From: Rhodoferax ferrireducens T118
Lineage (GTDB): Bacteria; Pseudomonadota; Gammaproteobacteria; Burkholderiales; Burkholderiaceae_C
Assembly (NCBI RefSeq): GCF_000013605.1
Contig: NC_007908.1
Coordinates: 4,588,001 to 4,652,000, forward strand
Length of the DNA: 64,000 nucleotides
Direction of reading: 5' to 3'
Positions 21,587-55,624 of the stretch are shown piece after piece (the stretch's first letter is position 1; each line of letters begins with the position of its first letter). The notes below the pieces were generated by a model. The model worked only from the letters and a program-made list of their open reading frames with translations, did not search any database and was not told where the DNA came from. Both the position numbers and the translations under genes were made by a program.

Positions 21587-21861
21587 GCACATTCGAGGCG
21601 AGCCTTCAACGGCGCGAAGAAGTCGCGCAGGGCACGCTGGCGTTTCATTTTGAGAAACCCGCAGGCTTCAGATTCAAACCCGGCCAGGGGACCGACGTTG
21701 TTGGCCTGACGCGCCCACCCTCGACACCGGCAGTGAAGAGTTTTATGGTTACTGATGGGGCGGGGCCGCTTGATACGTCGCGACCCGGCTTTTCATGCGG
21801 TCTGAAAAAAACCGGAACGCCGGCAGCCCGCCGACCATCTAATGGACAGGATCAACCATGA
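21583..21861 (+). pseudogene. N-terminal fragment of a ferredoxin-reductase-type flavoprotein
   Basis: MSTFEASLQRREEVAQGTLA followed by FHFEKPAGFRFKPGQ resembles the first FAD-binding strands of ferredoxin-NADP reductase-like proteins. After about residue 45 the sequence loses family character and runs into the sigma-gene promoter. The rest of the enzyme is missing. It overlaps the FolE2 remnant by four bases. Confidence 0.5.
21814..21842 (+). promoter_or_regulatory. ECF-sigma promoter, GGAAC-N17-CATCTAA, upstream of the sigma gene
   Basis: GGAAC at 21814-21818 and CATCTAA at 21836-21842, spacing 17, repeat the sequence found at 19983-20011. Transcription would start a few bases before the sigma ATG at 21858, giving a very short leader. 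Its place before the sigma gene suggests autoregulation. Confidence 0.65.
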
Positions 21862-22577
21862 ATACCCAAAAGACAATGCTTCCCGCGCCCCTTGATGTCA
21901 GCTCCGACGCGGAGCTGGTCGATCTGGCTATTGCCGGCCATGATGCGGCGTTTTCGCAGATCATGCGGCGCCACAACCGTTTGTTGTTTCGCACAGCGCG
22001 CGGCATCCTCAAGAACGACGACGACACGCAGGATGCCTTGCAGGAAGCCTATCTGCGCGCCTGGCGCGCGCTGGCCAGCTTTCGCTCTGACGCCCGGCTT
22101 TCCACCTGGTTGGTGCGCATCGTGGTCAATGAAGCGCTGGGGCGGCTGCGGCGCTCTGGCGTCCAGCCCGCCCAGGTCTTGCCGCTCAATGCGGCGATCG
22201 ACCCAGATGGCGAAACCCCGGAGATGCAGATGCAGGCCAATCCCGATGACCAGCCCGAGCCCACCGCCGTGCGGGCACAGATACGCCAGCAGATCGAGGC
22301 CCGGATTGACTCCTTGCCCGATTCGTTTCGCAGCGTTTTCATGCTTCGGGGGGTCGAGGAATTGAGCGTGGAGGAAACCGCCCTGGCGCTGGATATTCCC
22401 GAGGCCACCGTACGCTCCCGGTTTTTTCGTGCCCGCGGCATTTTGCGCGAAGGCCTTTCACGCGACATCGACATGGCCATCGGTGACGCATTTTCATTTG
22501 CCGGCCCGCGCTGCGACAGGATTGTCGAGGGTGTGCTGGCCAGGATTGCCCACGAACGTGAATCTTCCCGCTCGTGA
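21858..22577 (+). CDS. ECF RNA polymerase sigma factor (first)
   Basis: Sigma-70 family, ECF group, 239 residues. Region 2 shows DALQEAYLRAWRALASFRSDARLSTWL, with NEALGRLRR after it. Region 4 shows LPDSFRSVFMLRGVEELSVEETALALDIPEATVRSR. A C-terminal tail of about 35 residues follows. No anti-sigma gene is adjacent, unlike the second ECF system at 29914. It precedes a ferritin-like protein and a cytochrome gene, probably in one operon. Likely regulon: itself and the di-haem lipoprotein. The inducing signal is unknown. Confidence 0.9.
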   Translation: MNTQKTMLPAPLDVSSDAELVDLAIAGHDAAFSQIMRRHNRLLFRTARGILKNDDDTQDALQEAYLRAWRALASFRSDARLSTWLVRIVVNEALGRLRRSGVQPAQVLPLNAAIDPDGETPEMQMQANPDDQPEPTAVRAQIRQQIEARIDSLPDSFRSVFMLRGVEELSVEETALALDIPEATVRSRFFRARGILREGLSRDIDMAIGDAFSFAGPRCDRIVEGVLARIAHERESSRS

Positions 22578-28751: not shown

Positions 28752-29360
28752 TCAGGCAGCCTTGAGCTCAAATACGGTATCGTCCCACGCATGGTCGAGC
28801 AGGATGCGCTGCACGCGTTGCTGCCACAAGCGTCCAAATTCAATGAGTTGCTCGTCTGTGGCCTGAGCTGAGAGGCAAAGCTGCATCAGGCGCATGGTTT
28901 GCGGGTCCCCCGGTACGCGGTGCGGATAGGCTTGGGCTAGCACGACCTGGCCGGTGTCGGTTCGCGTGAAACGAAGCTCGGCCTCGATATCCACGTTGAA
29001 CTGCAGCAAACCGCGCCGCACAAACTGGCCACCGATGCCGGCAAAGCCGCCGTCGCTGGCGGCCCCGGTGAGCAAGCCCAGCACATTGGCGACCACACCG
29101 GCGGTGCCGGTCTCAAGTCGGTCGCGCAAGCTCACCTGGATAGCCCCGCGTGTGGGCATGTCGTCGCCGTACAAGGTCTTGATGGCGCGCACGCCGAGCC
29201 AGTAGGCCGAGGCAACCGTCGGGCAAGAATGGCCGGCTAGCCGCACCGCATCTGCGTAGCCATAGCTCATTAGCCCGCCAGTGACCGATCCGAGTAAATC
29301 AGCGAGCGGATCGCGCAGTGTGATGCGCGGCACCTGATCGAAAAAATCAGGGAAATTCAT
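28752..29360 (-). CDS. FmdE-like protein
   Basis: A 202-residue protein related to formylmethanofuran dehydrogenase subunit E. The family core GYADAVRLAGHSCPTVASAYW holds the conserved His-Ser-Cys-Pro, a probable metal site, and IKTLYGDDMPTRGAI follows. The organism is not a methanogen, so the role differs from the name; such genes often accompany DUF2249 proteins. It begins about eight bases after the DUF2249 stop and shares its NsrR-like control. Start ATG 29360 preferred over a TTG at 29372. Confidence 0.75.
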   Translation of the reverse strand: MNFPDFFDQVPRITLRDPLADLLGSVTGGLMSYGYADAVRLAGHSCPTVASAYWLGVRAIKTLYGDDMPTRGAIQVSLRDRLETGTAGVVANVLGLLTGAASDGGFAGIGGQFVRRGLLQFNVDIEAELRFTRTDTGQVVLAQAYPHRVPGDPQTMRLMQLCLSAQATDEQLIEFGRLWQQRVQRILLDHAWDDTVFELKAA

Positions 29361-29368
29361 GGGGCTCG

Positions 29369-29629
29369 TCAAAGACAGGCGAAGTCGATCACGATGGCGC
29401 CTGACTCCCGTTGCACGTACTCAATAGAAACGGCATCGCCGTACCGGGCGACGAGTTGGTTCAATAGGGGAATCGGATCGTGGTCATTGCAAAAGCGCAT
29501 GGTCTCACCGGGTTGCAGTGAATCAAGCGCACCAAAAATGGCGGCATGACGGAAACGCTTGGCAACGCCGCGCGCATCAAACGGATAGATAGCTTCGGGG
29601 GTGACGTGGTTGGTAGCGCAGGAACTCAT
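29369..29629 (-). CDS. DUF2249 domain protein
   Basis: An 86-residue protein with the DUF2249 pattern: DARGVAKRFRHAAIFGALDSL, GETMRFCNDHDPIPLLNQLVARYG and IEYVQRESGAIVIDF. The conserved NDHDP motif is present. Function unknown; in many proteobacteria such genes belong to the nitric-oxide/denitrification regulon. GAGG lies seven bases before the ATG. An NsrR-like operator lies 164 bases upstream, and FmdE-like gene follows. Confidence 0.82.
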   Translation of the reverse strand: MSSCATNHVTPEAIYPFDARGVAKRFRHAAIFGALDSLQPGETMRFCNDHDPIPLLNQLVARYGDAVSIEYVQRESGAIVIDFACL

Positions 29630-29792
29630 GGTGAAACCTCTTGTGGTTGGAAAAAAGTAATGGACCTGCTGTTCTTGGCGCAGCAGGACTTGTTGCGGGA
29701 GAAATCGCTCGCGATTGCCGGGCTGACTGCGCGATGCGCGCGCGAATGGAACGGACAATCGGGAAACATGCTCATATACTTGCATTGCTTTA

Positions 29793-29815
29793 AAGATGTA
29801 TTGTAAATACTTCTT
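29793..29815. promoter_or_regulatory. NsrR-like operator upstream of DUF2249-fmdE
   Basis: AAGATGTATTG-T-AAATACTTCTT is an 11-1-11 inverted repeat, 9 of 11 positions symmetrical, and the best NsrR match in the window. It precedes the leftward DUF2249 gene. It also lies 63 bases before the ECF promoter on the other side. Confidence 0.6.
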
Positions 29816-29877: not shown

Positions 29878-29905
29878 GGAACTTTTTCTGACGCCATTCG
29901 TTTAT
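29878..29905 (+). promoter_or_regulatory. ECF-sigma promoter, GGAAC-N16-CGTTTAT, upstream of the second sigma gene
   Basis: GGAAC at 29878-29882 and CGTTTAT at 29899-29905, spacing 16. The same pair and spacing recur at 31485-31512 before the DUF6448 genes and nowhere else that I found. The -10 ends eight bases before the sigma ATG, leaving almost no leader. Confidence 0.7.
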
Positions 29906-29913
29906 GGAATTGA

Positions 29914-30477
29914 ATGATTGATATGCTGACCTCCGATGGTTCCGAAGATGACTGGGTAAGCCGTGCGCGAGCGGGCGACCGGAAAGCATTTTCCGAACTG
30001 GTGCGGCGTCATCAAAAGCCGGTTCACCGCTATCTGTTGCGCATGCTGGGGTCGCACGACGATGCGATGGAGTTGACGCAGGAAGCGTTTATCAAGGCTT
30101 GGCAGGCGCTGCCGCAGTGGCGGCCCGAGGCTCAATTCCGCACCTGGCTGTTCCGGATCGCGAACAACACGGCGCTCGATGCCCTGCGGCACCGCAAGTT
30201 GATCGAATTCGTGCCGCTGGAGGACTCGTTTGACGCGCCCGGTTCGGAGCCCGATCCAGCGCATCAGGCGCAGGTCACGCAGGAGGTGAGGCAACTGGAC
30301 ACGAGCTTGAAGAAGCTGATGCCGGAGCACCGGCAAATACTACTGTTGCGAGAGGTGGAAGAAATGTCTTACGAAGAAATTGGAAGTGTGCTGTCGCTGA
30401 ACGAGGGGACGGTGAAGTCGCGGCTGGCGCGCGCACGAGCCGCCCTGATTGAGATTCGTGCAAGGAGTCGGTCATGA
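29914..30477 (+). CDS. ECF RNA polymerase sigma factor (second)
   Basis: Sigma-70 ECF protein of 187 residues. Region 2: DDAMELTQEAFIKAWQALPQW then FRTWLFRIANNTALDALR. Region 4: LMPEHRQILLLREVEEMSYEEIGSVLSLNEGTVKSRLARAR. The stop overlaps the anti-sigma start (ATGA). Order sigma / zinc-finger anti-sigma / CnrX-like sensor recalls metal-responsive cnr systems, in reverse order. It probably transcribes itself and the downstream DUF6448 pair. No RBS is visible before ATG 29914, so the message may be leaderless; ATG 29923 is an alternative. Confidence 0.92.
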   Translation: MIDMLTSDGSEDDWVSRARAGDRKAFSELVRRHQKPVHRYLLRMLGSHDDAMELTQEAFIKAWQALPQWRPEAQFRTWLFRIANNTALDALRHRKLIEFVPLEDSFDAPGSEPDPAHQAQVTQEVRQLDTSLKKLMPEHRQILLLREVEEMSYEEIGSVLSLNEGTVKSRLARARAALIEIRARSRS

Positions 30478-30932
30478 GCTTTGCCGAAAAATGCCCACGA
30501 ACCGAGGCGATATCGGCCCTGGTCGACGATGAGCTGGCCGAGCCCGCTCGCGCTGCGCTCAATGCGCATGTCGAGGGCTGCGCGATCTGTGCGCCAGTGC
30601 TGGCCGAGTTCAGGCAGTTGCGGACTACCTTTGCCGCATTGCCCGACGTGACGCCCAACGTCGATTTCGCCTTTCTGGTGGATCGCCGCATCTCCGCCGC
30701 AGGCGTTCCTAGGCCCAAACCAAAGCCGCGGCGCTGGCGTTGGTGGCAACTCGCACCGGCGACGCTCGGCGGCGCCATCTCGCTTTCGCTCGGCGTCTAT
30801 TTGGGCGGCACACTGATGCTGGGGTCGCAGATCACGGCGCAACCTGCGGCGCTGCAGATGGCCGCCTTTACCGCAATTCCTCCGGGCGCCCTGTGCCCGG
30901 CCCTGCAAGCCTGCAATTCAATGGGTCGCTGA
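30474..30932 (+). CDS. Anti-sigma factor with HxxxCxxC zinc finger
   Basis: A 152-residue membrane-anchored protein. The cytoplasmic N-terminus has ALNAHVEGCAICAPVLAEF, the HxxxCxxC zinc-binding anti-sigma motif. One membrane span (GGAISLSLGVYLGGTLML region) lies near residues 100-118, with a short periplasmic tail. It should bind and hold back the adjacent sigma factor until a periplasmic signal arrives. Overlaps the sigma gene by four bases and is followed one base later by the sensor gene. Confidence 0.88.
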   Translation: MSFAEKCPRTEAISALVDDELAEPARAALNAHVEGCAICAPVLAEFRQLRTTFAALPDVTPNVDFAFLVDRRISAAGVPRPKPKPRRWRWWQLAPATLGGAISLSLGVYLGGTLMLGSQITAQPAALQMAAFTAIPPGALCPALQACNSMGR

Positions 30933-30933
30933 C

Positions 30934-31410
30934 ATGAAACGCTACTGGATCTATCTGCTACTCGCCGTCTCGCTGTTGGTCAACGTGGGCGTACTCGCCG
31001 GCGCGTGGTTTCAGGCTTGGCGTGCGCAAGGTGCGACTGAACTGGCCTTCTTCGGGATGGGTCACGAACGCGTTCCGGACTATTTAAAGCTCGATGGCAC
31101 GCAAATCGAGCGCTGGCATGCGATGGAGAAGGACTTCGTGAAGGTCCTCAATGATGTCGACGGCAAAATCCAGATTCACCGCGAGCATCTGGTGCGCGAG
31201 ATCTTCTCCGCTCAACCCGACACGTCAGTCATCGAGCGCGAGCGCGCTGCAATCTTCACGCTGCAGGAGGCGCAGCAGCGCAGCGTCATTGAGCAACTGC
31301 TCAAAGAGCGCGAGATGTTGAACGCGAGACAGCGGCTCGCCCTGGCTGACCTGCTTCTCAAGCAGGACCCGCGCAGTACCGCCGGCGCGCAGCAACTGCA
31401 CGCACGCTGA
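30934..31410 (+). CDS. CnrX/ZraP-like periplasmic sensor protein
   Basis: A 158-residue protein with an N-terminal membrane anchor (YLLLAVSLLVNVGVLAGAWF) and a helical periplasmic domain. The pattern LDGTQIERWHAMEKDFVK, then EREMLNARQRLALADLL, fits the Metal_resist family of CnrX, ZraP and CpxP. Metal-binding His/Glu positions are sparse (His in ERWHAM and KIQIHREH), so whether it senses metal or something else is open. Third gene of the ECF signalling operon. Confidence 0.8.
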   Translation: MKRYWIYLLLAVSLLVNVGVLAGAWFQAWRAQGATELAFFGMGHERVPDYLKLDGTQIERWHAMEKDFVKVLNDVDGKIQIHREHLVREIFSAQPDTSVIERERAAIFTLQEAQQRSVIEQLLKEREMLNARQRLALADLLLKQDPRSTAGAQQLHAR

Positions 31411-31484
31411 TCCGCATCAGCGTCCATTGCCCGGCCCAGACTGGCCTGATCGGACGCGCTGGCACTGCGGGTCGAAATGAATCT

Positions 31485-31512
31485 GGAACAAATCTCCAAC
31501 TACTTCGTTTAT
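31485..31512 (+). promoter_or_regulatory. ECF-sigma promoter, GGAAC-N16-CGTTTAT, upstream of the DUF6448 pair
   Basis: GGAAC at 31485-31489 and CGTTTAT at 31506-31512, spacing 16, match the promoter before the second sigma gene exactly in both boxes. It lies 79 bases before the first DUF6448 start codon. Confidence 0.7.
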
Positions 31513-31518
31513 CCAAGT

Positions 31519-31547
31519 AAGGCCCGGTCGAATCAAGACCGGGCCTT
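31519..31547 (+). promoter_or_regulatory. Perfect 11-bp hairpin at the predicted transcript start
   Basis: AAGGCCCGGTC (31519-31529), loop GAATCAA, GACCGGGCCTT (31537-31547): a perfect stem starting about seven bases after the -10 box. No T-run follows, so it is not a standard terminator. It would cap the 5' end of the DUF6448 message and could stabilise it. Confidence 0.6.
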
Positions 31548-31590
31548 GATGAGAACGAAGTCCGTAACTACCACTGGAGAATTACCTATC

Positions 31591-32217
31591 ATGAAATTCA
31601 ATCAAATCACAGTCAAAGCTTCTGTCCTGGCGACCCTCTCGGCGGCACTGCTGCTCGCGGCGGCGCCTGCCTCCGCGCATTGCGATGGCGTGGACGGCCC
31701 GGTCATTAAAGCAGCGCAACAAGCGCTCGACACCGGCAACGTCAATCGCGTGCTGATCTGGGTGCAAGCTTCTGACCAAGCGCAGATCAAGGAGGCGTTT
31801 CGCAAGACACTCGACGTCAGGCAGTTGAACCCTGCTGCCAAGAAACTGGCTGACTATTCCTTCTTCGAGACCCTGGTACGCGTGCATCGAGCCGGAGAAG
31901 GGGCACCTTACACCGGGATCCAGCCGGCTGGCCGCGACCTTGGCCCAGCCGTGGTGGCAGGCGACAAGGCGCTTGAAACGGGCTCCGTCGAACCCCTGGC
32001 GAACTTGCTCACGAAGGCCGTGCACAAAAGCGTCGGGGGGCAGTTCAAGGACGTCATCGCCAAGAAGAATTTCAAGGTTGACGACGTTGCCGCCGGACAA
32101 GAATATGTCAAGGCGTACGTCGGCTATATCCATTCGGTCGAACGGATTTACGAAGCCACTGAAGGTCCCGCGCACGGCGACGCCAAGGAAAGCCCTGCAG
32201 CGGCCCATCAGCATTAA
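31591..32217 (+). CDS. DUF6448 family periplasmic protein (first paralogue)
   Basis: A 208-residue exported protein of unknown function. The signal peptide ends ...AAAPASAHCDGVDG, so the mature N-terminus begins with HCD, a likely metal-binding start. Family-like blocks: LDTGNVNRVLIWVQASDQ, SFFETLVRVHRAGEGAPYTG and AGRDLGPAVVAGDKALETG; the tail ends with a His-rich AAAHQH. Driven by the ECF-type promoter at 31485. About half identical by eye to the next gene. Confidence 0.8.
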   Translation: MKFNQITVKASVLATLSAALLLAAAPASAHCDGVDGPVIKAAQQALDTGNVNRVLIWVQASDQAQIKEAFRKTLDVRQLNPAAKKLADYSFFETLVRVHRAGEGAPYTGIQPAGRDLGPAVVAGDKALETGSVEPLANLLTKAVHKSVGGQFKDVIAKKNFKVDDVAAGQEYVKAYVGYIHSVERIYEATEGPAHGDAKESPAAAHQH

Positions 32218-32238
32218 AGCGATCTAAAGGTGAACACC

Positions 32239-32949
32239 ATGAACCTGCAAAACCTGCTGAAATCACGCATCGCGCTGGCGCTCTTTGCCGGCCTCTTTTA
32301 CCTGACCTGGAAATCATTGGCTCAGTATTTCGGGCTGGATGAATCGATCGGCGGCGTCGGCACGGACGCCATTGGGCTGGGCAATGGTGGTCTCGCGCTG
32401 GCTTGGGCGCTTGGGCATTGCGATGGGCTGGATGGACCCGTGGTGACGGTGGCACGCAGGTCGCTCGAAACCGGCAATGTCAATCTGGCCCTGCCCTGGG
32501 TTCGGGCCGAGGACGAAGGCGAGATTCGAAAGGTGTTCGACCAAGCGAGGTTGGTGCGCAAACTCGGCGCAGAGGCGCGCGAACTCGCCGACACGCACTT
32601 CTTTGAAACGCTGGTACGTATCCATCGGGCTGGGGAAGGCGCGCCCTTTGGTGGCTTGCAACCGGCCGGTCGCGATCTCGGTCCGGCGGTTCCAGCTGCC
32701 GACAAGGCGCTCGAAAATGGCTCGATCGAACAGGTGGAGAAACTGCTCACCGACGCGATACGCGGCGGCGTGCACAAGTATTTTGACGTCGCCTTTGGGC
32801 GCCGCAAGTTCGATCCCAACGACGTCGAGGCGGGTCGTGCGTACGTCGAGGCCTATGTGCCCTATATCCACTATGTGGAGCGGTTATGGCAAGCCGCACA
32901 GGGCGCGGGACATGCACATGCAAATGACCGGCATCACGCCGGGCACTGA
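32239..32949 (+). CDS. DUF6448 family membrane-anchored protein (second paralogue)
   Basis: A 236-residue paralogue of the preceding gene. It has an N-terminal hydrophobic segment (IALALFAGLFYLTWKSL) and then a linker before ALGHCDGLDGPVVTVA, which repeats the HCD...DGPV motif. HFFETLVRIHRAGEGAPFGG and AGRDLGPAVPAADKALENGS match its neighbour, and the end is His-rich (GHAHANDRHHAGH). It is probably membrane-tethered where the first is soluble. AAGG lies eight bases before ATG 32239; GTG 32230 is an alternative. Gap from the first paralogue is 21 bases. Confidence 0.8.
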   Translation: MNLQNLLKSRIALALFAGLFYLTWKSLAQYFGLDESIGGVGTDAIGLGNGGLALAWALGHCDGLDGPVVTVARRSLETGNVNLALPWVRAEDEGEIRKVFDQARLVRKLGAEARELADTHFFETLVRIHRAGEGAPFGGLQPAGRDLGPAVPAADKALENGSIEQVEKLLTDAIRGGVHKYFDVAFGRRKFDPNDVEAGRAYVEAYVPYIHYVERLWQAAQGAGHAHANDRHHAGH

Positions 32950-33516
32950 CATTGGCTAATGGATCGGTTTGCCGAGAATACTTGACTCCGTCGCGCCGCG
33001 TTTTGCACCTGTGGCTGACTGGTAATGATGAGCCGATCGATTTGAAGCCGGCGTCGTCCAGGCAGGCCACCAAGAGAGCCTTTTGCGCGGTACTCCGACT
33101 GGTCCTGGTGTAAGTAAGTCAGTAAGGGCGGGCTCACCCCTTTTTATGCCGTCGAAGCCCAGCGCTTCGACGGCTTCGCTTTGGAGCCGAACCTATCCTT
33201 CATCAAAGACCGGGATTCCCCAGAGTGTGACGCTCCTGGCCAGCGGGTCTGTTTACCCGCTTGTTCATTTAGGTCACTGAGAAAGAGAAATCTTCTTTCC
33301 AATTCGAATTTGGGCACTGGCGGGATAATCGCGACGAAATCCGCCGTGCGCATGGTAGATCCATCCAAAGCATGAAACCGCATGACCGCGACGGCCGGCA
33401 GCTTGAACGTATCCAATTTCAGCTGGCTTCAAAATAGACAGGAGATGTGAGGTCCCTATGACGATCGACGCAAGCATTTTGAGGAATGGCTCCGCATCGA
33501 TGGGAAAGGAAAAACA
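32950..33516. other. Intergenic region with two hairpins
   Basis: No gene is recognised. AAGGG and CCCTT around 33124-33143 form a weak stem followed by T residues, a candidate terminator for the DUF6448 operon. GCCGTCGAAG (33148-33157) pairs perfectly with CTTCGACGGC (33165-33174). The remaining sequence up to nnrS holds no feature I can support. Confidence 0.45.
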
Positions 33517-34827
33517 TTGAAACCGATCCCCATCAAGCCGACGACCCTAAACAACACTTCACGTGCAGTGACGGGCAACCACGTGACACCACCCTGGAGG
33601 CCGATCTGGCTACTGGCTGCACCCCACCGCCTGGCTTTTTTTATGGCTGCACTCATGCTGGTGATGAGTTCGATCTGGTGGGGAATCTTATTGGTGACGC
33701 GGGCTCTCGGCTTAGCGCTGTACTGGGCCGTGCCGGTTTCGGCGGCTCATGGGCTGCTGATGAGCATGGGGTTCATGCCACTGTTTTTTGCTGGGTTTCT
33801 TTTCACAGCCGGACCCAAGTGGTTGCGTCTGCGGGAAGTCACGGCGCGCAGTTTGTTGCCGGGCTTGATGTTCATGCTGGCTGGCTGGGTCAGCGTCCTG
33901 ATCGGCTTTCATACCTACGCCCTGGTGTCCTGCGCAGGCGTGATATTGGTCGCTGCCGGCTGGACAGTTCTGAGCGTGAAATTCTCCATGATGGTGCGAC
34001 GAAGCGACGTGCCCGACCGTATCCACGCTCGCCTGGTGGCTTTCGCATGTGGCATTGGCGCCATCGCGTTGTGGACGGCGGCGGTGTCGCTGGCTATCAG
34101 TTCGGAGTTAATGCTGCGGACCGCCACGCAGATGGGGTTATGGGGATTCGTTGCGACCATATTCGCAGTGGTATCTCACCGCATGATTCCATTCTTCGGT
34201 GCCAGCGCAGTTCCGTTTCTCGATGCATGGCGACCGATGTGGTTGCTGTGGGCAATGGTCACTGTGCTGTGGCTGGAGGCCGTGTTTAGCGCAGCGGAGT
34301 TGTGGTACCGGCCTTTTTCGGCCGCCATGCGATGGGGTCAGGTCGCGGTCGAATTACCAGCGTCCCTTCTGTTGCTCTACTTAGCGATACGCTGGGGTCT
34401 GGTGCAGAGCCTGAAAATCCGGCTTATCGCTATGCTTCACGGCGGCTTCACGTGGTTGGGGATTTCCTTCGCGCTGAGTGCCCTGTCCCACACGCTGATG
34501 GCGCTGACAGATGGAGCACACTCTCTGGGACTTGCGCCTCTGCATGCCATGACCATGGGTTATCTAGGCGCCACCATGTTTGCGATGACCACGCGGGTGA
34601 GCAGTGGGCACGGCGGCCGACCTGTCGCCGCGGATGACGTAGCCTGGACTTTGTACTGGATACTGCAGTCAGCCGTGCTGCTGCGCGTCATCGCGGCCAT
34701 TTGGCCCGCAGCTAGCACACCTTTCACGCTGCTGGCGATTGCCGCATGGACAGCGGCCACGCTAGGTTGGGCGCTCCGGTATGGCCGCTGGTTTGGTCGC
34801 TCCCGCCTGGATGGTCGACCAGGTTAG
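33517..34827 (+). CDS. nnrS: NnrS family haem-copper membrane protein
   Basis: A 436-residue protein with about twelve membrane helices. The NnrS pattern is visible: PHRLAFFMAALMLVMSSIWW near the start, HGLLMSMGFMPLFFAGFLFTAGPKWL, VVSHRMIPFFGASAVPF and HAMTMGYLGATMFAMTTRVS. NnrS helps cells survive nitric oxide. The TTG start at 33517 is supported by AAAGGA seven bases before it. No clear NsrR site was seen next to it. Stands alone on the plus strand. Confidence 0.92.
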   Translation: MKPIPIKPTTLNNTSRAVTGNHVTPPWRPIWLLAAPHRLAFFMAALMLVMSSIWWGILLVTRALGLALYWAVPVSAAHGLLMSMGFMPLFFAGFLFTAGPKWLRLREVTARSLLPGLMFMLAGWVSVLIGFHTYALVSCAGVILVAAGWTVLSVKFSMMVRRSDVPDRIHARLVAFACGIGAIALWTAAVSLAISSELMLRTATQMGLWGFVATIFAVVSHRMIPFFGASAVPFLDAWRPMWLLWAMVTVLWLEAVFSAAELWYRPFSAAMRWGQVAVELPASLLLLYLAIRWGLVQSLKIRLIAMLHGGFTWLGISFALSALSHTLMALTDGAHSLGLAPLHAMTMGYLGATMFAMTTRVSSGHGGRPVAADDVAWTLYWILQSAVLLRVIAAIWPAASTPFTLLAIAAWTAATLGWALRYGRWFGRSRLDGRPG

Positions 34828-55345: not shown

Positions 55346-55624
55346 TTGACCAACAACTCTGTCTTGAAGCCCGAGTTGATTGCCGATCTGTATCGCGAAC
55401 GCAGATAGCTGGAGTAGTTCTTGAAGTGGATCAAACAGCGTTTGCGCATCAAGGTGTTCTTTGGCCTCAGCGAGAGCGCAGTGAAGACAGAAATCGTGAC
55501 TGCTATTTCCACCCATGTGTTGATTGCCATCAAAGAGAGATTTATGCATCTTAAACATCACGGTCTATATGAAATCCCACTGGTTTTGAGCCTGTCCATA
55601 TTCGAAACTACCTTTATGGATTAA
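55346..55624 (+). mobile_element. IS4-family transposase C-terminal relic
   Basis: LTNNSVLKPELIADLYRER, then FLKWIKQRLRIKVFFGLSES, AVKTEIVTAISTHVLIAI and a normal C-terminus. Two in-frame TAG codons interrupt the first part, where intact proteins have R-W-x-V-E-L-F-F. The N-terminal catalytic part is gone. Confidence 0.75.

Follow-up and report, generated by a model that had tools for sequence, protein, structure and literature searches.

A CnrX-like sigma factor system upstream of paired DUF6448 genes in Rhodoferax ferrireducens T118: a candidate envelope response to nitrosative or metal stress

The window analysed was a 64,000-nucleotide stretch of Rhodoferax ferrireducens T118 (contig NC_007908.1, positions 4,588,001 to 4,652,000 of the forward strand). 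It encodes an extracytoplasmic function (ECF) sigma factor, a zinc-finger anti-sigma factor and a CnrX-like periplasmic sensor, followed by two exported DUF6448 proteins. The locus was interpreted, with a probability put at about 0.55, as an autoregulated sigma system for nitrosative or metal stress in the envelope that deploys exported metalloproteins with an N-terminal hook. In the mechanism proposed, the CnrX-like protein and the anti-sigma factor would keep the sigma factor inactive until a signal in the periplasm frees it; the likeliest signal is nitrosative stress, or metal that nitric oxide (NO) has set free or misplaced. The freed sigma factor would then recognise the two GGAAC-N16-CGTTTAT sites, one ahead of its own operon and one ahead of the DUF6448 genes. 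The DUF6448 proteins would be exported and cut by signal peptidase exactly before His1, giving a mature chain that begins His1-Cys2-Asp3, and a metal centre would be built from the N-terminal amino group, His1, Cys2, perhaps Asp3, and His70 and Glu74. Working in the periplasm alongside NO reductase, NnrS and iron-sulphur (Fe-S) repair proteins, this centre may bind or turn over NO-derived species, or may protect or supply metals. On the best reading of these sequences, DUF6448 would belong to the NO response as an exported metalloprotein, regulated in this lineage by the sensor system.

An earlier note on this DNA had described the sigma factor, anti-sigma factor and sensor as a tight operon. 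Open reading frame and Pfam analysis confirmed all five genes at the positions it gave, each in the family it named (Table 1), and bore out the operon, the first two genes overlapping by 4 bp and the sensor gene following after a gap of 1 bp. The sigma factor comprises Sigma70 regions 2 and 4_2 and no region 3, as defines an ECF factor, and shares 31% identity with CnrH across 170 aligned positions. The anti-sigma factor carries the H-x3-C-x2-C motif of the zf-HC2 family and scored above the Pfam cut-off. Both DUF6448 proteins are full members of PF20046 (198.2 and 195.8 bits, cut-off 27) and their genes lie 12 bp apart; a genome search found none beyond this pair in the same genome. The first DUF6448 gene most likely starts at the ATG at 31591, because the longer open reading frame (from 31477) would overlap the promoter. 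No paper in the literature searched names DUF6448, and within that scope the claim that the family has no described function stands.

Within the window, GGAAC-N15..17-CGTTTAT had just two matches, at 29878 and 31485, where 0.01 were expected. Genome-wide there were three matches, the third (L001) with no evident target gene. As the reversed control pattern also gave two genome-wide matches, genome-wide rarity alone is weak evidence, and the case for these promoters was therefore built on position and conservation. By position, one site lies ahead of the sigma gene and the other ahead of the two DUF6448 genes as a unit. The proposal that both paralogues have the same promoter as the sigma gene was accordingly kept for the unit but not for each gene, since the second DUF6448 gene has no site of its own. 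By conservation, both promoters recurred as GGAAC-N16-CGTT in 8/9 sensor-bearing loci, L009 fitting at the DUF6448 site only. The same pattern was present upstream of the first DUF6448 gene in 15/15 ECF-type loci (including L012 and L016, with no sigma gene in view, and L009 and L135, which look like one species) versus 0/100 other DUF6448 genes (91 distinct sequences, 4 of them with less than 300 bp upstream). Use of both sites by the sigma factor is thereby suggested.

DUF6448 genes were sought beside ECF systems in other genomes, as the earlier note had proposed, and the linkage recurred. A scan of named genomes used patterns containing HCD, the best 80 of 170 matches corresponding to 79 loci. 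Sigma factor, anti-sigma factor, sensor and DUF6448 occurred together in 8 of these (L008-L011, L013-L015, L052). A further locus, L021, has the sensor, DUF6448 and a sigma gene in two overlapping frames, with the anti-sigma factor not detected. No CnrX-like sensor was in view in the remaining 70. In a survey of 399 genomes of the window's family, unselected for neighbours, DUF6448 was present in 6 and the sensor in 17, and in 5 of the 6 DUF6448 genomes (G000, G798, G809, G928, G1077) the sensor gene ended no more than 300 bp upstream of DUF6448 on the same strand. DUF6448 was rare in the phylum as a whole (3/398 genomes).

The HCD motif, placed by the earlier note at or near the start of the exported domain, was located more sharply: in the first DUF6448 protein it is the predicted mature N-terminus itself. 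The Pfam model PF20046 begins at mature residue 6, so that HCD lies outside it and a search with the model is blind to the motif. Such a search found 38 loci, of which 5 were without the N-terminal part (two at contig edges, one matching from model position 9). In all 33 homologues with a complete N-terminus, HCD immediately follows a stretch resembling a signal peptide, in which the residue at -1 is Ala or Ser and that at -3 varies; cleavage sites were judged by eye, and 5 of the 33 (L093, L105, L106, L108, L120) came from genomes already reached by the HCD-pattern scan. Among plasmid matches, many of them near-identical, 46/47 began exactly at His1. Because the collection-scan patterns themselves contain HCD, the motif is claimed from the homologue and plasmid sets only. 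In the second DUF6448 protein, HCD follows a short hydrophobic stretch, AWALG, with a small residue last, as at a signal peptidase site. Its description as membrane-anchored is therefore uncertain, and this protein may be trimmed before HCD too.

In an alignment of 49 DUF6448 rows, G7, P8, V67, H70, R71, E74 and G80 (mature numbering) were invariant; the rows were picked for HCD and a His/EG pattern, so that this alignment gives no independent evidence on positions 1-3 and only partly independent evidence on positions 70-75. H70, R71 and E74 were also invariant in an alignment of 79 rows. His152 was frequent and was replaced in 10/49 rows. The His-rich tail noted in both window proteins proved common in the family, but variable. 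In an AlphaFold model of DUF6448 (pLDDT, the predicted local distance difference test, 90) the only strand or bridge residues were 4 and 82. Read as a single bridge, these would bring the N-terminus to the turn of H70 and E74, probably close to where the H70-bearing helix ends. No clearly similar solved fold was present among the structure matches listed for DUF6448, which proves neither novelty nor function.

The neighbourhood of DUF6448 points mainly to NO. Neighbours within 8 kb were clustered for the 79 loci and the window; cluster names rest on one annotated representative each, and part of the 36 clusters were annotated. Crp/Fnr regulators were found at 15 loci (at 10 of them no more than 200 bp upstream), NO-reductase-like COX1 proteins at 15, NorC-like cytochromes at 5, NnrS at 8 plus 8 (including the window) in a second cluster, RIC Fe-S repair proteins at 9, hemerythrins at 9 and Rrf2 regulators at 12. 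The NorB representative matched a solved nitric oxide reductase (PDB 3o0r, 7e-97). Genome-wide hits fell inside DUF6448 loci in 13/42 cases for NnrS (0.17 expected; two of the 13 being pieces of one gene), 8/45 for RIC (0.15 expected) and 8/35 for NorB (0.12 expected), a clustering of NnrS, Fe-S repair and NO reductase genes 50-80 times chance, as would suit an NO-detoxification module. These figures apply to 50 of the 79 loci (49 genomes), hand-picked after the NnrS positions were already known; the sample held every locus with NnrS below 1e-30, some RIC or NorB loci were left out, and the other 29 loci were excluded. At L071, nnrS near DUF6448 is in two overlapping pieces.

Individual loci gave the same picture. 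On plasmid pPRO1 of Pelobacter propionicus, nrfA, hcp, ric, an anaerobic NO reductase flavorubredoxin gene and DUF6448 follow one another on one strand within 8.5 kb with a few other genes in between, a ferredoxin gene coming after DUF6448. In Sinorhizobium a hemerythrin gene stands just before DUF6448 with a Crp/Fnr gene nearby, and in Tetragenococcus ric is near DUF6448. Repeated HMA-domain and ric genes follow DUF6448 on the Tetragenococcus osmophilus plasmid (L134). For the ECF-type loci, NnrS comes after the pair in the window and in L012, and is found also in L014; a nitric oxide reductase comes after the pair in L011; and nitrate reductase genes precede the sigma gene in L014 and L052. 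In the window the NnrS gene, encoding a haem-copper membrane protein of NO stress, lies about 570 bp downstream of the pair on the same strand.

Divergent to the sigma gene is a DUF2249 gene, a family which we take to be COG4309. An NsrR-type operator overlaps the sigma-70-like -10 element of this gene; it was found at the same place in L008 only, among nine other loci tested, and NsrR-type sites at up to three mismatches showed no excess in the window (6 versus 6.73 expected). COG4309 is tied to norB and NsrR in the available part of PMC1274295. DUF6448 sits, in several phyla, among genes of the NO-detoxification kit of the NsrR, DNR, NnrR and HcpR regulons (NorB, NnrS, RIC/DnrN, Hcp, COG4309), with Crp/Fnr regulators and an NsrR-type site near it, but was not found among the members of the NO regulons in that part of PMC1274295. 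The window's lineage differs from the kit in that DUF6448 adjoins an ECF sigma factor and its promoter. No paper in the literature searched treats NnrS together with DUF2249.

Table 1. Positions of features in the window, and of signal peptidase I genes in the numbering of five other loci
Feature	Position	Strand	Support
ECF-type promoter GGAAC-N16-CGTTTAT, before sigma gene	29878..29905	+	
ECF-type promoter, second copy, before DUF6448 pair	31485..31512	+	
ECF sigma factor, 187 aa	29914..30477	+	Pfam Sigma70_r2 6e-22, r4_2 1e-15
zf-HC2 anti-sigma factor (H32-x3-C36-x2-C39), invariant C-terminal C141/C147	30474..30932	+	zf-HC2 28.4 bits, cut-off 22.2
CnrX-like periplasmic sensor	30934..31410	+	Metal_resist PF13801, 6.9e-26
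First DUF6448 protein, exported; predicted mature start His (codon 31678), HCDGVDGPV	31591..32217	+	PF20046 8.2e-59
Second DUF6448 protein, N-terminal hydrophobic segment, His-rich tail; HCD codon 32416 after AWALG	32230..32949	+	PF20046 4.6e-58
Inverted repeat between DUF6448 pair and NnrS	33148-33174		
NnrS	33517..34827	+	Pfam NnrS 5e-54
NsrR-type operator GATGTATTGTAAATACTTC, one mismatch to published consensus	29795..29813	.	0.02 expected at <=1 mismatch
DUF2249 gene, divergent to sigma	29369..29785	-	Pfam 8.5e-26
Signal peptidase I gene, L137	2035-2499		
Signal peptidase I gene, L138	937-1425	-	
Signal peptidase I gene, L139	1904-2374		
Signal peptidase I gene, L125	8665-9195		
Signal peptidase I gene, L131	8918-9475		

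The sensor was assigned to the CnrX family by its Metal_resist domain and its four-helix hairpin fold. With the sensor model (pLDDT 67, core helices better) as query, the first 12 Foldseek rows were all CnrX chains (E 0.06-0.21, probability 1.00, TMt 0.71-0.77), representing one protein in many entries; CpxP, Spy and the ZraP-type protein 3lay were also among the matches. The Ni/Co ligands of CnrX are H42, H46, E63, H119 and M123. When ten sensors were aligned with CnrX of plasmid pMOL28, at an identity of 23-25%, E63 was kept in 10/10 and H42 in 8/10, and H46, H119 and M123 in 0/10. With most ligands lost, a Ni/Co site of the CnrX kind in the sensor is unlikely. In the anti-sigma factor, C141 and C147 (window 30894-30914) were invariant in 9/9 aligned orthologues, and this C-terminal, presumably periplasmic cysteine pair is a possible redox- or NO-sensitive point.

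Systems of sigma factor, anti-sigma factor and CnrX are known, and in CnrYXH and NccYXH of Cupriavidus metallidurans an ECF sigma factor, an anti-sigma factor and a CnrX-type periplasmic sensor are likewise encoded together. New here are the gene order (sigma, anti-sigma, sensor, as against Y-X-H), the type of anti-sigma factor, with its zf-HC2 domain and C-terminal cysteine pair, the altered sensor ligands, three of the five being gone in all sequences, and the target family, the genes right after the system encoding DUF6448 whereas those after CnrYXH encode resistance-nodulation-division (RND) efflux. The likeliest alternative is a metal resistance of the CnrYXH kind: the sensor would bind a metal in surplus (Cu, Ag, Ni, Co or Zn), sequestration or carriage of this metal would fall to DUF6448, and the NO neighbours would reflect shared metal needs. 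The CnrX fold and Metal_resist family of the sensor and the His-rich tails of DUF6448 speak for it, as do silE beside DUF6448 in Citrobacter and, in Aerococcus and Tetragenococcus, the presence of metal ATPase and HMA proteins. We nevertheless judged it unlikely: only one of the five CnrX ligands is present in all ten sensors, and the neighbour enrichment lies with NO genes, the only ones its figures concern, metal genes being outside that measurement. The metal-response system proposed in the earlier note was weakened for the first of these reasons and because 70/79 loci have no sensor in view. Its suggestion of metal or haem binding stands in part, metal binding, through the mature N-terminus, being the best guess for DUF6448 itself. 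The CpxP, Spy and ZraP-type matches would also suit a general envelope protein-folding response with DUF6448 as a structural or chaperone protein, but CnrX took the first 12 rows and DUF6448 travels with NO genes (chaperone genes lay outside that measurement), and we regard this explanation as very improbable.

The predicted mature N-terminus invites comparison with nickel superoxide dismutase (NiSOD). The nickel hook of NiSOD takes its ligands from His1, Cys2 and Cys6, according to the accessible part of PMC5722923, and the end of the SodN chain is freed by a dedicated peptidase, SodX, according to that of PMC3919588. SodN has a mature chain His-Cys-Asp exposed by proteolysis, and the same start is predicted for DUF6448, His1-Cys2 being expected in all 33 complete homologues. 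Signal peptidase offers a further parallel to SodX: an S26-type signal peptidase I gene stands directly after DUF6448 in five loci (L137, L138 and L139, of one genus, and Aerococcus and Tetragenococcus halophilus plasmids; positions in Table 1). These loci, seen without a systematic count, span two distant lineages, and in T. osmophilus no signal peptidase gene directly follows DUF6448. On a second alternative, DUF6448 would be an N-terminal-hook redox enzyme that removes periplasmic superoxide or peroxynitrite in the manner of NiSOD. That explanation was held improbable. Position 6 was D, N, E, K or Q and never Cys in 49/49 rows (chosen for HCD), so that the Cys6 ligand is absent; hhalign against one NiSOD sequence gave a probability of 1.2%; the NiSOD four-helix fold was not among the Foldseek or VIA matches listed for DUF6448; and the adjacent S26 peptidases matched the SodX model below its cut-off. 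Export by a signal peptide is a further difference. For want of Cys6 and of detected homology, DUF6448 was not filed as a NiSOD, although by analogy it may work on a principle like that of the NiSOD hook. Slightly less probable again is that DUF6448 binds or handles haem in denitrification, its iron ligands being His70, Cys2 or both. Haem proteins do occur among its neighbours (NorB, NnrS and cytochrome c), and the invariant His70 and frequent His152 could serve this role, but neither window protein has a CxxCH motif, His152 is replaced in 10/49 rows, and the fold matches listed showed no solved haem protein that stood out.

Several observations also weigh against the preferred reading, a sigma-controlled envelope response to nitrosative or metal stress. 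One of the six DUF6448 genomes of the family survey, G1045, has no sensor, and 12 further genomes have the sensor without DUF6448. At nine such sensor-only loci that were read (L143-L150, L152), a different small, exported, His-bearing protein follows the sensor in 8, L150 being not resolved. The signal of the sensor thus need not follow the chemistry of DUF6448. Clear NO or nitrate genes were near 4/10 sensor-bearing loci only (the window, L011, L014 and L052), although several of the contigs are short. Judging by the inverted repeat that follows the pair, NnrS is probably transcribed separately, and no signal peptidase gene adjoins the window pair. Other contexts were also met: two-component or AraC and ferric-reductase genes near DUF6448 on Salmonella and Marinobacter plasmids, an AraC-like regulator (by eye) in L006 and L007, the silE gene of Citrobacter already mentioned, and, in Aerococcus, a P-type metal ATPase gene on the stretch that carries DUF6448.

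Between the sensor and the other exported protein, at least 8 loci (those listed) have a second GGAAC site. The follow-on proteins form a family of about 160 amino acids, exported and with the pattern LNxGxKW ... NCKL (L137:2721-3203, L143:898-1374 on the minus strand, L145:2099-2569 and others); three examples were without a Pfam match, and two tested were without an NCBIfam match. In L137, L138 and L139, one cluster holds DUF6448, signal peptidase I and the 160-residue protein with its own GGAAC site. Because this protein replaces or joins DUF6448 behind GGAAC sites, the CnrX-like sigma system seems to control small modules whose products are exported.

A wider version of the preferred reading is offered tentatively, as possible though not favoured by the odds. 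DUF6448 would be a new, phylum-spanning class of exported metalloproteins whose active metal site is made by signal peptidase cleavage and used against NO or its products, with a peptidase of its own in some lineages. In the window's lineage, a CnrX-type sigma system would have taken this class over, its sensor having shifted from Ni/Co to a signal related to NO. DUF6448 gains a testable place among the NO responses of many bacteria, and a candidate active site is now defined for it. Metal binding by its free His-Cys N-terminus, if real, would mean that the N-terminal hook known from NiSOD is used a second time, in an unrelated protein; and if the regulatory proposal is true, a CnrX-type sensor would have been put to a new signal.

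Further features of the window were recorded. After DUF2249 on the minus strand (window 28752-29372) lies the gene of a 206-amino-acid protein with GHSCPTVASAYWLG, without a Pfam match at 0.01, FmdE-like by eye and with relatives in L008, L011 and L013. A second ECF-like sigma factor is encoded about 8 kb upstream (21858-22577, plus strand). TTGAT-N4-ATCAA-like sites with up to two mismatches were commoner in the window than in shuffles (39 versus 15.15 expected), and an exact site at 55520 stands before a gene that resembles, by eye, a TRAP-type (tripartite ATP-independent periplasmic) transporter.

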